A DNA stretch of 64,000 nt, taken from positions 1 through 64,000 of the forward strand of contig JAFUBX010000022.1 in the NCBI GenBank assembly GCA_017459985.1. The letters are read 5' to 3'. A model generated the notes under the pieces. It ran no database searches and had not been told where the DNA came from. It saw only the letters and a list, made by a program, of their open reading frames with translations. Positions 19,281 to 58,344 of the stretch are shown here, piece after piece; positions within the stretch are counted from its first letter, which is position 1, and each line of letters starts with the position of its first letter. The translations under genes and the position numbers were made by a program. The DNA is from Parasporobacterium sp. (GTDB taxonomy: Bacteria > Bacillota > Clostridia > Lachnospirales > Lachnospiraceae).

Positions 19281-21022
19281 ATATCAGAATCAACGGACAG
19301 CCATTTGCTGTCGAAGATAATACATCTATTCTGGAAGCGGTGACCCACGCCGGGATCAAGATTCCCACGCTGTGTTATATGAAGGATCTGAATCAGATCG
19401 GCGCCTGCCGGATGTGTCTCGTAGAGATCGAAGGCCGGGATCAGCTCTTTGCTTCCTGCGACAATGTCTGCACTGAGGGGCTTTCAATCATTACCGACAG
19501 TGCCAGGGTTCTGGACGCCCGTCGCACCAATCTGGAGCTTTTGCTGTCCCAGCACAAGGTGGAATGTCCCAGCTGTGCCCGGAATGAGAACTGCCGTCTC
19601 CGTACCATTGCGGCAGAGCTCGGCATCCGCAACCTGGAAAACTTCCGTCCGGATTATATGACGAAGGAATGGGATCCCCTCTCTCCGATCATCCGGGACG
19701 AGACCAAGTGTATCCGCTGCTATCGATGCGTGGCGGAATGTGAAAAGGTCCAGACCTGCAATGTCTGGGATATGGTGGGTTCCGGCTCCCACACGTCCGT
19801 CGGGGTGGCCGGCCACGAAAATCTGAAAAATTCAAACTGTGTCTATTGCGGACAGTGCGTGACCCACTGTCCGACCGGAGCCCTGTCGGTACGATATGAT
19901 ATTGACAAGGTCATCGGAATCCACGGTGCATTGGCAGACCCGGAGAAGATCACCGTCGTCCAGATCGCGCCGGCAGTCCGGAGTGCCTGGGGTGAAGAAT
20001 TCGGCCTCAGCAGTGAGATTGCCACAGAAAAGCGCCTGGCGGCTGCTCTGCGGAAACTCGGATTTGATTATGTATTTGATACCAACTTTTCCGCAGATCT
20101 TACGATCATGGAGGAGGGCACGGAGTTTCTTCACAGGATGCAGCACCGGGAGCAGTACCAGTGGCCGATGTTCACCAGCTGCTGCCCCGGATGGGTCCGT
20201 TTCCTGAAGAAACAGTATCCGGATATGACATCCCAGCTCTCGACCGCCAAGTCCCCGCAGCAGATGTTCGGTGCCGTGACCAAATCCTATTTTGCATCAA
20301 AGATCGGGGTGGATCCGGAGAATATCACCTGCATTTCCGTCATGCCCTGTTCCGCCAAAAAGGCCGAACTGGAAATCCCGAACATCAACGACGCGAAGGA
20401 AGGCGTCCTGGACGTGGATATTTCTCTGACCACCCGGGAAATGTGCGACATTATGAAGATCAACCAAATCGATATCGCCGCTCTGGAAGAGGAGGAGTTT
20501 GATTCTCCGCTGGGCTCCGGAACCGGCGCCGCTGTGATCTTCGGTTCCACCGGCGGCGTAATGGAGGCGGCCCTTCGGACCTGCTACTTTGTTCTCACCG
20601 GAACCAATCCGGATGCCGACGAGACCTTCCGGGCCGTCCGGGCCGCGGGATCCGACCGCCCCTGGGTCGAAGCCGAATATGAGGTGGCGGGAATCAAAGT
20701 CCGTGCGGCTGTGGCCAACAGTCTCGGCCACGCCCGTCAGCTCATCGAGGCCCTCCGCAAAGGCGAAGTCAGCTACGATTTTGTGGAGATCATGGCCTGT
20801 CCCGGCGGCTGCGTCGGAGGCGGCGGCCAGCCGATCCATTTTGATCAGGAGCGTGCTCTTGACCGCTCCGGGATCATTTACGGCTACGATTCCAGAAATC
20901 CCCTGCGGTTCTCCCATGAGAACCCGGATGTTCAGGCCCTCTATGCAGATTTCCTGAAAGAGCCCTTAGGGAAGCTTTCCCACCATCTGCTTCACACCGA
21001 CCACAGCGGCTGGGACGCCTGA
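19274..21022 (+). CDS. hydA: [FeFe] hydrogenase, group A type
   Basis: A 582-residue hydrogenase with, in order, an N-terminal 2Fe-2S domain (CYMKDLNQIGACRMC), the His-Cys3 4Fe-4S site (HKVECPSCARNENC), two 4Fe-4S ferredoxin clusters (CIRCYRCVAEC and CVYCGQCVTHC), and the H-cluster motifs TSCCPGW (Cys303/304), MPCSAKK (Cys359) and MACPGGCVGGGGQP (Cys509, Cys513). All ligands are present. It reversibly makes H2 in the cytoplasm. Coupled to the upstream flavoprotein. No maturase genes (hydEFG) are in the window. Confidence 0.95.
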   Translation: MVNIRINGQPFAVEDNTSILEAVTHAGIKIPTLCYMKDLNQIGACRMCLVEIEGRDQLFASCDNVCTEGLSIITDSARVLDARRTNLELLLSQHKVECPSCARNENCRLRTIAAELGIRNLENFRPDYMTKEWDPLSPIIRDETKCIRCYRCVAECEKVQTCNVWDMVGSGSHTSVGVAGHENLKNSNCVYCGQCVTHCPTGALSVRYDIDKVIGIHGALADPEKITVVQIAPAVRSAWGEEFGLSSEIATEKRLAAALRKLGFDYVFDTNFSADLTIMEEGTEFLHRMQHREQYQWPMFTSCCPGWVRFLKKQYPDMTSQLSTAKSPQQMFGAVTKSYFASKIGVDPENITCISVMPCSAKKAELEIPNINDAKEGVLDVDISLTTREMCDIMKINQIDIAALEEEEFDSPLGSGTGAAVIFGSTGGVMEAALRTCYFVLTGTNPDADETFRAVRAAGSDRPWVEAEYEVAGIKVRAAVANSLGHARQLIEALRKGEVSYDFVEIMACPGGCVGGGGQPIHFDQERALDRSGIIYGYDSRNPLRFSHENPDVQALYADFLKEPLGKLSHHLLHTDHSGWDA

Positions 21023-21053: not shown

Positions 21054-21103
21054 GCGGAAGGTCCGTTGCGCAGAATCAAGCTTCTCTTCCGCTGACCTTC
21101 CGC
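21054..21103 (-). repeat. Intergenic hairpin repeat module, type alpha (inverted)
   Basis: A 50-bp module with ends GCGGAAGGT and ACCTTCCGC. Its reverse complement contains AAGCTTGATTCTGCGC, like the alpha modules at 517-565 and 59313-59362. It lies four bases from the start of the hairpin array element that follows. Confidence 0.6.
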
Positions 21104-21107
21104 CGAG

Positions 21108-21321
21108 ACCGCAATGCTCGACATTTTTGACAACGGCTGCCGAAAAATTGCAGCATTGCGTGAGGTTTTCGACAGACCTGCCGAAAAGTTGCAGTATTGC
21201 GGTAGAATCTGCCGAAAAATTGCAGCATTGCGTGAGGTTTTTGACATTCTGCCGAAAAGTTGCAGCAATGCGTGAGATTTTCGACAACGACTGCCGAAAA
21301 ATTGCAGCATTGCGGTAACTC
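21108..21321. repeat. Inverted-repeat-bounded array of hairpin units, copy A
   Basis: The element starts ACCGCAATGC and ends GCATTGCGGT (21307-21316), a perfect 10-bp terminal inverted repeat, then AACTC. Between lie five units starting GCCGAAAA at 21139, 21180, 21211, 21251 and 21293. Complete units read GCCGAAAA(A/G)TTGCAGCA, then (A/T)TGCGTGAG, then (A/G)TTTTCGACA, so CGAAAA can pair with TTTTCG. The 21211 unit has TTTTTG in the right arm and the third and last units are short. Unit spacing is 41, 31, 40 and 42 bp. A second copy lies at 56372-56595. The variable spacing shifts the reading frame between units, arguing against protein coding. Confidence 0.85.
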
Positions 21322-21387: not shown

Positions 21388-21418
21388 AAGGAGCCACCGC
21401 GAAAAGCGATGGCTCCTT
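21388..21418 (-). terminator. Probable terminator of the liv operon
   Basis: A 9-bp stem AAGGAGCCA/TGGCTCCTT encloses a GCGAAAAGC-containing loop, 139 bp after the livF stop on the minus strand. The T-run is short (CTTTG), so strength and direction are uncertain. Confidence 0.55.
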
Positions 21419-21556: not shown

Positions 21557-22267
21557 TCAGCCGCCAAGGTATGCCTTGCGGATCTCCGGCGAGCTTGCCA
21601 GTTCGGCGCCGGTGCCGGAGGCGGTGACGGAGCCGGTCTCAAGGACATAGGCCCGGTCCGCGATCTTCAGGGCTTTCTCGGCATTCTGCTCCACCAGCAG
21701 GATCGTGATTCCTTTGTCGTTCATATCCTTGATGATATCAAACACCTGGGAAACCAGCAGCGGGGATAGTCCCATGGAGGGCTCATCCATCATCAGCAGC
21801 GTGGGATGTGCCATCAGCGCACGGCTCATGGCCAGCATCTGCTGCTCTCCTCCGGATAAGGTTCCTGCGATCTGCGTACGCCGCTCTCCCAGAATCGGGA
21901 ACTGGTCAAATACATTCTCGATGTCGTCTTTGATCTTTTTGGGATCCTTCTGCAGATATGCTCCCAGCATCAGATTGTCATAAACCGTCAGCTCCTGGAA
22001 GATCCTTCGGCCCTCCGGTACCTGACTGATCCCGGATGCAACGATCTTATGGGAGGGCATCCTGGTAATGTCCCGGTCGTTATAATGGATCGAACCGCTC
22101 TTGGACGGAATCAGTCCGATAACGGTCTGCATGGTTGTTGTCTTGCCTGCGCCGTTGGCGCCGATCAGAGTCACGATCTCCCCTTTGTTCACTTCAAAGG
22201 AGATGCCCTTCAGCGCCTGGATCACTCCATAGAAAACCTGCAGGTCTTTCACTTCCAATAATGCCAT
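21557..22267 (-). CDS. livF: Branched-chain amino acid ABC transporter ATP-binding protein LivF
   Basis: A 236-residue ABC ATPase with Walker A GANGAGKTT, signature LSGGEQQML and Walker B LLMMDEPSMGLSP. The length and the segment GISQVPEGRRIFQELTV are typical of LivF. It is the last gene of the five-gene operon; its ribosome binding site GGAGGG overlaps the livG stop. It energises uptake through LivH and LivM. The amino-acid substrate cannot be fixed from sequence, since this family also transports amides and urea. Confidence 0.93.
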   Translation of the reverse strand: MALLEVKDLQVFYGVIQALKGISFEVNKGEIVTLIGANGAGKTTTMQTVIGLIPSKSGSIHYNDRDITRMPSHKIVASGISQVPEGRRIFQELTVYDNLMLGAYLQKDPKKIKDDIENVFDQFPILGERRTQIAGTLSGGEQQMLAMSRALMAHPTLLMMDEPSMGLSPLLVSQVFDIIKDMNDKGITILLVEQNAEKALKIADRAYVLETGSVTASGTGAELASSPEIRKAYLGG

Positions 22268-36449: not shown

Positions 36450-36587
36450 CCATCCTTACGATATGCGGCATTCCTCCCGCCGGAATCTCCCCGGCCGGAA
36501 AACAGCCGGATCCTTCCCTCAGGAACAACGATCCATAAACATATTGCCGGAAAGCAGATCCGTAGACAGCAGACCTTTGCTTCCACG

Positions 36588-36750
36588 TAACAGGCAGGTC
36601 TCCTGACTTCGATCATCACAGGTTCCATCCCTTCCCGGTTTCCCAGTGGTATTTCAAATGGACCTGCTCCCTGACACAGTGACTGTATCGTTCCGGATTC
36701 TCACCGGATTCCCTTTTCACCCGCACCTTCCGGACGGGCACCTGTACGCT
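36588..36750 (-). ncRNA. Cobalamin riboswitch
   Basis: Read on the minus strand the region contains, in order, the conserved blocks CAGGTGCCCG, GGGAATCCGGTGAGAATCCG, ACAGTC, CCACTGGGAA and AGTCAGGAGACCTGCC, the hallmarks of the B12 (adenosylcobalamin) aptamer. The ends are approximate. With the downstream terminator it should switch cbiK off when cobalamin is plentiful. Confidence 0.95.
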
Positions 36751-36815
36751 GCAAGCTGCGATCATCCGAAACTTCCCGGATGATCACAATTCCTTTATTC
36801 TATTCAGACAGATGG

Positions 36816-56251: not shown

Positions 56252-56371
56252 GACCAAACTTCCCGCTTTTGAAAAGATGAGCGAATGACTTTCTGCCTCA
56301 GAATGTCAGTGTCCCGGTTTTTGAATATCCTTCGTTTTTGAAGCTTCTGCCCTGCCAGTCAGGCTGCGGGT

Positions 56372-56595
56372 ACCGCAATGCTCGATGTTTTTGACAGCAC
56401 CTGCCGAAAAGTTGCAGCATTGCGTGAGATTTTCGGCAGACCCCTCGGAAAGACCCGGATTTTGACGAAAAAATGCAGCATTGCGTGAGTTTTTTGGCAG
56501 AAACGCCCCGCTGAGAGCCTCTTTGACGAAAAATTGCAGCAATGCGTGAGATTTTCGACAGCGACTGCCGAAAAGTTGCAGCATTGCGGTAACTC
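56372..56595. repeat. Inverted-repeat-bounded array of hairpin units, copy B
   Basis: Same architecture as 21108-21321: ACCGCAATGC at 56372-56381, GCATTGCGGT at 56581-56590, then AACTC. Four units start at 56403, 56464, 56525 and 56567, with spacing of 61, 61 and 42 bp. The first has perfect arms GCCGAAAA and TTTTCGGC around TTGCAGCATTGCGTGAG; two others start GACGAAAA. The header, CTCGA followed by TTTTTGACA, is also shared with copy A. Located between nagA and the pyrophosphatase gene and filling most of that gap. Confidence 0.85.
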
Positions 56596-56613: not shown

Positions 56614-58344
56614 CTACTCCTCGATCGCTCTCAGGACTGCGGGCAGCAGCTGTTTCTTCCGGCTCATGACTCCCGGCATATCAAAGGCGCGATAGGCTTT
56701 GCTGCCCGCTGCCTCCGGATCATTGTAACGAATGATTTTTTCATAGGGCAGTTTGGCTCCGTCCCGGTGGATTGTTGTCAGCAGGATGCTCTTCTCGCTC
56801 AGAACATTGGTGACCATCAGCATTGCCCAGTCCAGCCCGGCGCCGTTCTTCACGGTTTCCAGCGCAGCAAGATAGGCCTGCGCATACTCATCAATATTTT
56901 TGAGCGTGGTGGTCTCGCACTGGCCGATCCCCACCTTCACATCATTGCTCTCATATACCTTGAAATCCGATTTGATGGCTTCTTCCGGATCCCGGGTCGC
57001 AAGATTGGAGGTAACGCTGTAAAGCATTTCTCCGAATTCCTGATAATCGACCCCGCAGATCGCGGACAGCTCCTGAACCGTTTTTCTGTCGATTCCGGTG
57101 GTTGTCGGGCTCTTCAGAATCAGGGTATCGGATAAAACTCCCGTCAGCAGCATTTTCGCGCTGTCGATATCCGGCGTGATTCCATTGGCCAGATACTGCT
57201 GCCAAACGATAGTACAGGTACTCCCCAGCGGACGGGCATCCACAAGAATCGGCAGATCCGTTTTCATGGCGTCCAGCCTGTGATGGTCGATGATCTCCAC
57301 GATATTGGCGGTTTCAATCCCCTTGATACTCTGCCCGGCTTCGTTGTGATCGACCAGGATCACGTTGTAGGCCGGGCGGTCCAGGAAACACCTTCTGGTT
57401 ACATATCCGACGAAGGTCTCATTTTCCATGACAGCCAGGCCTCTGGCGCTGGAGGATGCCAGCAGATCCTTCGCATCTGCAAACAGATCCGAAGCCTGCA
57501 CATTTTCCTCACCGGACCCCATCAGTTTCCCAAGGGGCTCACTCATTCTCAGTCTCCGGATCGTCTCCGCCGTGCTGAGGGAAGTGATGTAGATCAGACC
57601 GTCATAACCGGAAACATCGATTTCCGGCATCAGTTTATCCCCGATCCCCTCCGGTCCGGAACGATGAATCGCCGGAAGGACGTTTTCCGGTTTGTCCGCA
57701 TCCTTCTCCAGGGTGATCGTGGTAATAATGATGGCCGGCACGTTCTGACGGATGGCGTACCGGATATGCTCCGGCCGGGCTCCCATCACCACCAGGGAAT
57801 CGGCGTTTTTCGGGATAAATTCCGAAAAGTCCTGGATGGACGCCGCTCCGACGGTAATCGGCGCAACAAAAGAATCCCGGCTGCCCTGATGCAGGATCTG
57901 CCCCGGAAGCACTTCCGCAATATTTTTTACCGTGAAATCATATTTCGGATTATCATCTGTGTTCTCTTTCAGAAACCAGGCTGTGACATCATCAATGCTC
58001 AGCAGCCCGGCGTAGACTCCGTTTTCAAACAGCGGCGTCACGGACGGGTTCTCTTTGTTATATCTCTTCACCAGCTGATACACCGGTTCCGTCACATCGA
58101 TCCCGCCGGCCGCCCTGAGCATCACATCGCTGACCTTGGGAAATACATCCGCCATATAGGGCGGAGCTTCCACCCCTACCAGCTGCAGCTGCTTTTCCAC
58201 GCTCTCCGACATCTGTCCGCAGCGGACTGCCCGGTACTCCTTTTCCGGGTCGATCCGGTTCTTAAGCGCTGCATACGCATAGGCGGAACACAGGCTGTCC
58301 AGATCCGGATTTTTATGACCGGTAATATAGATCGTCTGCTTCAT
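56614..58344 (-). CDS. ppaC: CBS-domain manganese-dependent inorganic pyrophosphatase (family II)
   Basis: A protein of about 576 residues. GHKNPDLDSLCSA and the DHH block EIIDHHRLDAM are family II PPase metal motifs. Between them lie CBS-type segments (FENGVYAGLLSIDDV and MENETFVGYVTRRCF) flanking a DRTGG-like region, as in the adenine-nucleotide-regulated clostridial PPases. A family II PPase without CBS domains has about 310 residues. The ATG at 58344 has GGAGGAG six bases upstream. It hydrolyses pyrophosphate in the cytoplasm. Monocistronic. Confidence 0.93.
   Translation of the reverse strand: MKQTIYITGHKNPDLDSLCSAYAYAALKNRIDPEKEYRAVRCGQMSESVEKQLQLVGVEAPPYMADVFPKVSDVMLRAAGGIDVTEPVYQLVKRYNKENPSVTPLFENGVYAGLLSIDDVTAWFLKENTDDNPKYDFTVKNIAEVLPGQILHQGSRDSFVAPITVGAASIQDFSEFIPKNADSLVVMGARPEHIRYAIRQNVPAIIITTITLEKDADKPENVLPAIHRSGPEGIGDKLMPEIDVSGYDGLIYITSLSTAETIRRLRMSEPLGKLMGSGEENVQASDLFADAKDLLASSSARGLAVMENETFVGYVTRRCFLDRPAYNVILVDHNEAGQSIKGIETANIVEIIDHHRLDAMKTDLPILVDARPLGSTCTIVWQQYLANGITPDIDSAKMLLTGVLSDTLILKSPTTTGIDRKTVQELSAICGVDYQEFGEMLYSVTSNLATRDPEEAIKSDFKVYESNDVKVGIGQCETTTLKNIDEYAQAYLAALETVKNGAGLDWAMLMVTNVLSEKSILLTTIHRDGAKLPYEKIIRYNDPEAAGSKAYRAFDMPGVMSRKKQLLPAVLRAIEE

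Follow-up and report, generated by a model that had tools for sequence, protein, structure and literature searches.

We found that two hairpin arrays in the window (the whole stretch of 64,000 nucleotides that was analysed, contig C89 of a 3.53-Mb draft genome of 131 contigs) belong to a family, here called E1, of several dozen short intergenic arrays that has so far been seen only in this bacterium. The cores of the arrays and the distances between them are fixed amid drifting DNA, a pattern that suggests use by a DNA-binding protein. In our best reading, held with moderate confidence, the E1 arrays are binding platforms of mobile origin for a putative protein, retained by selection. Small interspersed bacterial repeats are often read as dormant parasites, as is argued in the accessible part of the BOX paper (PMC3049150). 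What is unusual in E1 is the sign that selection on DNA sites and on their spacing has held the copies where they are, and the combination of spacer drift and frozen cores makes a service of such repeats to the host directly testable.

Anatomy and distribution of the E1 arrays

Both arrays described in the earlier note were recovered, copy A at 21108-21316 and copy B at 56372-56590 (both on the plus strand), and they indeed share identical 10-bp ends, a header and a tail. A complete unit consists of a left arm TGMCGAAAA, the core TGCAGCAWTGCG and a right arm TTTTYGRCA. Copy A runs from its left end ACCGCAATGC (21108-21117) to its right end GCATTGCGGT (21307-21316) and comprises a header (21108-21132), in which, when aligned with other copies, the left terminal repeat is followed by a right-type arm TTTTTGACA, then unit 1 (21138-21174; left arm, core and right arm), a tail-like unit 2, GTATTGCGGTA (21179-21204), units 3 (21210-21246) and 4 (21250-21286) and a tail with the right terminal repeat (21292-21316). 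Its cores start at 21148, 21189, 21220, 21260 and 21302, giving core spacings of 42-41-31-40-42 (type II layout). Copy B has the type I layout, 42-61-61-42, with ends at 56372-56381 and 56581-56590, a header with the left terminal repeat (56372-56396), three units (56402-56438, 56463-56499 and 56524-56560), a tail with the right terminal repeat (56566-56590) and core starts at 56412, 56473, 56534 and 56576. The core TTGCAGCAWTGCG has nine matches in the window at up to one mismatch against 0.18 expected, and none of 100 shuffles reached nine; the 10-bp end alone is unremarkable there (8 matches at up to one mismatch against 4.8 expected).

Gene names around the two copies were taken from translations. 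Copy A lies in a convergent gap, flanked by a hydrogenase-like gene that ends at 21022 and by livF, which ends at 21557. The neighbours of copy B are a nagA-like gene that starts at 56257 and a gene for a DHH-type phosphatase that ends at 56614; these two genes are on the minus strand. An inverted pair, GGAAGGTCCG / CTGACCTTCCG, adjoins copy A (window 21060-21105).

The earlier note named a lack of further copies as grounds for refutation; the genome holds 126 exact matches to the 16-mer core TGCAGCAWTGCGTGAG and 72 to the 17-mer core, so the multi-copy family is real. The 16-mer has no match in 13 congeners and one isolated match (in G279) among 297 further genomes of the bacterial family; the 601 bases read around that match contain no array. 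A search of the 13 congeners with R1, a sequence-only model built from 24 aligned E1 copies, likewise found no E1 at E 0.001, with 150 first-look candidates scored per genome. No match was found in a plasmid and phage search with copy B as query; in viral contigs the 16-mer occurs once each in 68 contigs, which is about chance by a rough estimate. In a collection of genome contigs from which records near this genome may be absent, an E1 30-mer had no match and a 21-mer had two single matches (in Caballeronia and in a Terriglobia MAG). Rfam gave no match of worth for E1, the one match (E=0.81) falling far under its cut-off, and a literature search found no description of it, the exact sequence giving one unrelated paper, which is no proof that E1 is unpublished; this agrees with the statement in the earlier note that no described family was recognised. 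Elsewhere in the window, at 36576-36760 on the minus strand, there is a cobalamin riboswitch (Rfam RF00174, 91 bits), an ordinary feature.

For the anatomy we used 45 copies, parsed from 72 fetched stretches of this genome and from the window; copy A was missed by the parser and added afterwards, and the row for L200 starts at the inner of two headers. Left out were L040 and L064 (on duplicate contigs of L031 and L041), L039 (a duplicate of L051, cut by a contig end), L033, L059 and L191 (altered ends, missed by the parser), a forward-strand artefact at L053, partial copies and copies split by a second repeat. All 45 follow one plan, a constant header, zero to five units and a constant tail, and the constant ends, variable unit number and intergenic location proposed from the two window copies hold across the family. 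Terminal inverted repeats, a trait of MITEs, are perfect over 9 bp in 40/45 copies and over 10 bp in 30/45. With the header included, 26 copies (copy B among them) have type I spacing and five more three-unit copies depart from it by 1-2 bp; type II spacing, 42-41-31-40-(41 or 42), occurs in four (copy A, L041, L049 and L061). Other variants have lost or gained units: there are none in L197, L199 and L216, one in L047, two in L058 and L193, and five in L038. Copy A had been thought to look like a fusion of two elements, on account of its tail-like unit, but this unit is not a one-off: tail-like units and the same layout recur in L041, L049 and L061, and the fusion idea is replaced by a recurrent second architecture. 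Unit 1 is closer to its counterpart in other copies (0.935) than to its neighbours in the same array, unit 2 (0.888) and unit 3 (0.862); the arrays were therefore copied whole.

The left boundary is sharp between TA and CCGC, and conservation on the right side extends to about the step from GCGG to TAAATC. An AACTC edge, taken earlier as a feature of the element, is common to the two window copies and only to those; the commonest 3' edge is TAAATC, in 11/45. All 45 copies lie between ORFs, in a survey that set aside ORFs overlapping the element by more than 60 bases and therefore cannot rule out insertion inside a gene. We observed no clear bias of gene orientation: relative to the element strand, the neighbouring genes were same/same in 18 copies, opposite/opposite in 9, convergent in 9 and divergent in 9. 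There was no orientation with the replication strand either, GC skew on the element strand being positive in 24/45. Four copies (L045, L062, L065 and L184) have similar 3' flanks (AAACTCCRCCTGATCGGACC), so E1 may there belong to a larger duplicated or repeated stretch; these four may be segmental copies, which counts against our best explanation.

Conservation, age and spacing

The 26 copies of exactly 217 bp were used to count conservation. In 50 spacer columns 32% of the cells are off consensus, with a mean pairwise identity of 54.8%, against 6 of 1144 cells (0.5%) in 44 core columns (central W excluded). Invariant columns number 108/217, against 8.5 if the changes were spread evenly and a maximum of 18 in 500 simulations. 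The array length was held despite the spacer drift, as the 26 type I copies and the five near ones attest. The tree of these copies is star-like, with 78% of its length in external branches, whereas 5000 simulations of steady turnover averaged 28% and never exceeded 65%. The closest pair of E1 copies is 93% identical. At fourfold sites of livF, livG and livM this genome and G004, one of its two nearest congeners, are 54.4% identical (221/406). Since this equals the spacer identity, the burst that gave rise to the copies would be about as old as the split from G004. Unconstrained copies with this much drift would be expected to have lost their cores, which points to purifying selection on the cores, and the best reading is one old burst after which the copies were kept in place by such selection. 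As the copies were first found by their cores, the set is biased towards intact cores, and the R1 search, in which only 150 of 999 first-look candidates in this genome were scored, was meant to correct for this. Its 40 full-length sense-strand matches all score at least 129 bits, and there are no decayed full-length copies among those matches.

Among the 172 core spacings in the 45 copies, 78 are 42 bp, 66 are 61 bp and 12 are 41 bp, the remainder being 29-31, 40, 43, 59 or 62 bp. The values group around 30, 41 and 61 bp, which at about 10.3 bp per turn corresponds to roughly 3, 4 and 6 turns; this phasing is supported, not proven, because most spacings are inherited within a type and few values are independent. 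The core is the same when read in either orientation. Its central W varies freely in the units (66 A, 61 T) and is fixed at the ends; a symmetric core with a free central W is what a symmetric protein site would allow.

We propose that E1 multiplied in one burst in the lineage of this species, probably driven by a transposase acting on its ends, and that the copies have since stayed where they landed. Purifying selection would now hold the DNA-level sites rather than RNA pairing. With the palindromic cores GCAWTGC and their 9-bp flanking arms about 3, 4 or 6 helical turns apart, a protein that binds DNA as a dimer could sit along a single face of the helix. It might form a higher-order complex at several dozen intergenic places, with a job such as chromosome organisation.

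Mobile origin, RNA pairing and known repeats

The earlier note had suggested a mobile or RNA-level element. A mobile origin is plausible, given the dispersal, the sharp ends and the absence from 13 congeners, and the main rival to our reading, possible though in our view rather unlikely, is that E1 is a plain BOX- or MITE-like parasite, non-autonomous, moved by a resident or lost transposase and of no gain to the host. The cores would then be conserved as transposase sites, while the spacers drift along replicating lineages. In line with this are the terminal inverted repeats, the absence of coding capacity of note, the several dozen dispersed intergenic copies with none in 13 congeners, the TA found at the left end of 34/45 copies and at the right end of 33/45, and the fact that BOX and BrickBuilt have the same plan in the portions of their descriptions available (PMC3049150, PMC4596501). 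However, continuous turnover should give near-identical pairs and long internal branches, at odds with the closest pair and the star-like tree found here, and in old resident copies that served no function the cores should be gone by now. The five transposase loci of the genome that were examined (two Y1, two ISL3 and one sub-threshold DDE_3) have no E1 ends, and no autonomous partner was found among them; around the two Y1 loci there are no E1 ends or cores within about 3.3 kb. REP and BIME repeats are linked to a Y1 (RAYT-type) transposase, a link not seen for E1 at these two loci. No clear target duplications of 2-12 bp were found for E1 (best z 3.15 of 176 length/offset combinations), a TA being the only possible one. 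Copies A and B lie where synteny with the nearest congeners is broken, and empty sites cannot be read at these two places.

The RNA part of the suggestion fared less well. Transcribed hairpins that alter the processing or stability of the mRNA of neighbouring genes would fit the stable predicted folds (for copy B, z -4.5 on one strand and -4.2 on the other; for copy A, z -4.6); strong predicted folds on both strands are, nevertheless, what any palindrome gives. Compensatory arm changes, which the earlier note had proposed to look for, are absent. At the variable third arm position of 106 units we counted C-G 53, A-G 21, A-A 17, C-A 14, C-T 1 and A-T 0, so that 53/106 are unpaired there and an A-T pair never occurs. 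In 24 copies under the hairpin model, pairs changed on both sides number 1/37 against 0.7 expected from shuffles, and the covariation term of the consensus fold is -0.1 kcal/mol. As uncompensated arms had been named beforehand as evidence against the proposal, the RNA-pairing reading is weakened. Against a DNA-level reading speaks that the right-arm C has become T in 26/106 units, changes that would keep G-U pairs, while the left-arm G has become A in 1/106. We give more weight to the missing compensation and to spacers that are free in sequence and fixed in length; the copies, moreover, face either way relative to genes. We set aside selection on RNA pairing as the main reading, and an RNA-level element is, in our estimate, improbable. 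Far less probable still are terminators or attenuators evolved by the host: the hairpins do have T runs in their arms and copy A does lie between convergent genes, but convergent gaps hold only 9/45 copies, as do divergent gaps, and the gap of copy A has a separate hairpin at 21388-21418.

In anatomy E1 is a BOX-like composite interspersed repeat; the likeness that we draw is one of anatomy, and we do not file it as a member. Pneumococcal BOX is described, in the part of the source at hand, as having fixed end modules, variable inner modules and terminal inverted repeats, as 67-637 bp long and intergenic, and as limited to a narrow lineage, with predicted stem-loops and with other repeats inserted into it (PMC3049150). 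E1 likewise has end modules with a variable number of inner units (0-5), terminal inverted repeats, intergenic and lineage-limited copies, predicted stem-loops and interruptions by other repeats. BOX is reported there to make target duplications, unlike E1, for which none is clear, and the same part makes no mention of helical phasing or core-only conservation (PMC3049150). The BrickBuilt MITE of Porphyromonas gingivalis has, according to the portion of its description available, a leader, tandem units and a tail, and its inverted-repeat ends are small; one strain has 19 of these elements between genes, and the distribution is confined to its species (PMC4596501). E1 resembles it in the end modules around units, the inverted-repeat ends, the intergenic location and the restriction to one species; as far as that portion goes, however, the 23-nt units of BrickBuilt have no spacers and its ends match IS5-family elements of the same genome, whereas the palindromic units of E1 are spaced. 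With REP and BIME, as outlined in the excerpt of the source, E1 has in common short, extragenic palindromes in many copies, but it differs in being a fixed multi-site array with end modules (PMC12306157). The compensatory changes that mark structured RNA families are not found in E1.

At about 19 places a piece of E1 directly adjoins GCTTCTGCACCCTGGGTGGGTG, with which another repeat (E2) ends, and some of these junctions may be the two ends of one insertion split between contigs. E2 ends have 50 matches genome-wide at up to 2 mismatches, some of them chance; paired ends, inverted as GCTTCTGCACCCTGGGTG, lie 0.4 to 1.3 kb apart. In the cases read E2 interrupts E1 mostly in the A-rich arms, and it is also present away from E1. 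The repeat is apparently noncoding, hairpin-rich and about 0.4-1.3 kb long (e.g. L043 3053-4320, L203 2153-2952 and L220 568-1775). The longest ORFs touching two of its copies are 118 aa (L043) and 112 aa (L203), one out-running ORF excepted, so no transposase is seen in these two copies. Palindromes CGGAAGGT, like the inverted pair beside copy A, recur inside E2 copies (L043), and a third palindromic repeat, GTCATGCGGAAAA...AAAACGCATGAC, often adjoins E1 (flanks in L044, L051, L054, L056, L187 and L190).

A sister family in the nearest congeners

E1 cores are absent from the nearest congeners, G004 and G002, but these have 97 and 31 matches, respectively, to ATGCRTGATTTT, a sequence that this genome lacks and that occurs once or twice in each of six other congeners. 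It forms the end of sites of about 30 bp that make up another family of arrays, F1. It is unusual for a sister species to have another such family with a similar geometry. From G004, 38 F1 arrays entered the counts, with three direct and three inverted sites and with ends TG..CA in nearly all; 21 of them have six recognised sites and enough flank. The spacing, read in one orientation, is exactly 41-31-32-41-41 bp in 14/21 of the six-site arrays, and it is exact even though some linker columns have an identity of 0.2-0.3, near random, in these 21 arrays, which were selected for having six recognisable sites. The best period is 10.2 bp for all 163 F1 spacings and 10.4 for the distinct values. 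No clear target duplication was found (best z 1.96 of 99 combinations). F1 and E1 both consist of dispersed arrays in which sites are spaced 31/32 and 41/42 bp and the linkers drift, and both have an overall inverted plan, but F1 has different sites, three direct and three inverted, and the ends TG..CA. We tentatively consider, as a possibility that we would doubt more than the reading of E1 itself, that the two are lineage-specific versions of one unrecognised chromosomal element, with some 40-50 dispersed, helically phased arrays of several sites per genome, which selection on sites and spacing would each retain where it lies and which would seat a fast-evolving DNA-binding system, for instance one of chromosome organisation.

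In G004 the stretch just downstream of livF holds an F1 array (L319), and in G002 one lies near the livF end (C177:1406-1488), where this genome has copy A. A comparison of E1 with F1 loci (45 by 39) gave 54 pairs with some tblastx match, mostly of low identity and paralogue-like. Two strong pairs lie at the same gene end (copy A/L319 and L048/L309); one further pair is looser (L032/L324) and two are weak (L193/L318 and L037/L304), and two (L053 and L035) lie at opposite ends of the same gene. A rough estimate gives 0.6 pairs at the same end by chance. A general sharing of chromosomal positions by E1 and F1 was rejected, the excess over chance being weak at most. In G004, a hairpin array with CACGGACA / TGTCCGT is found downstream of the DHH-type gene (L251 1170-1370), where this genome has copy B.
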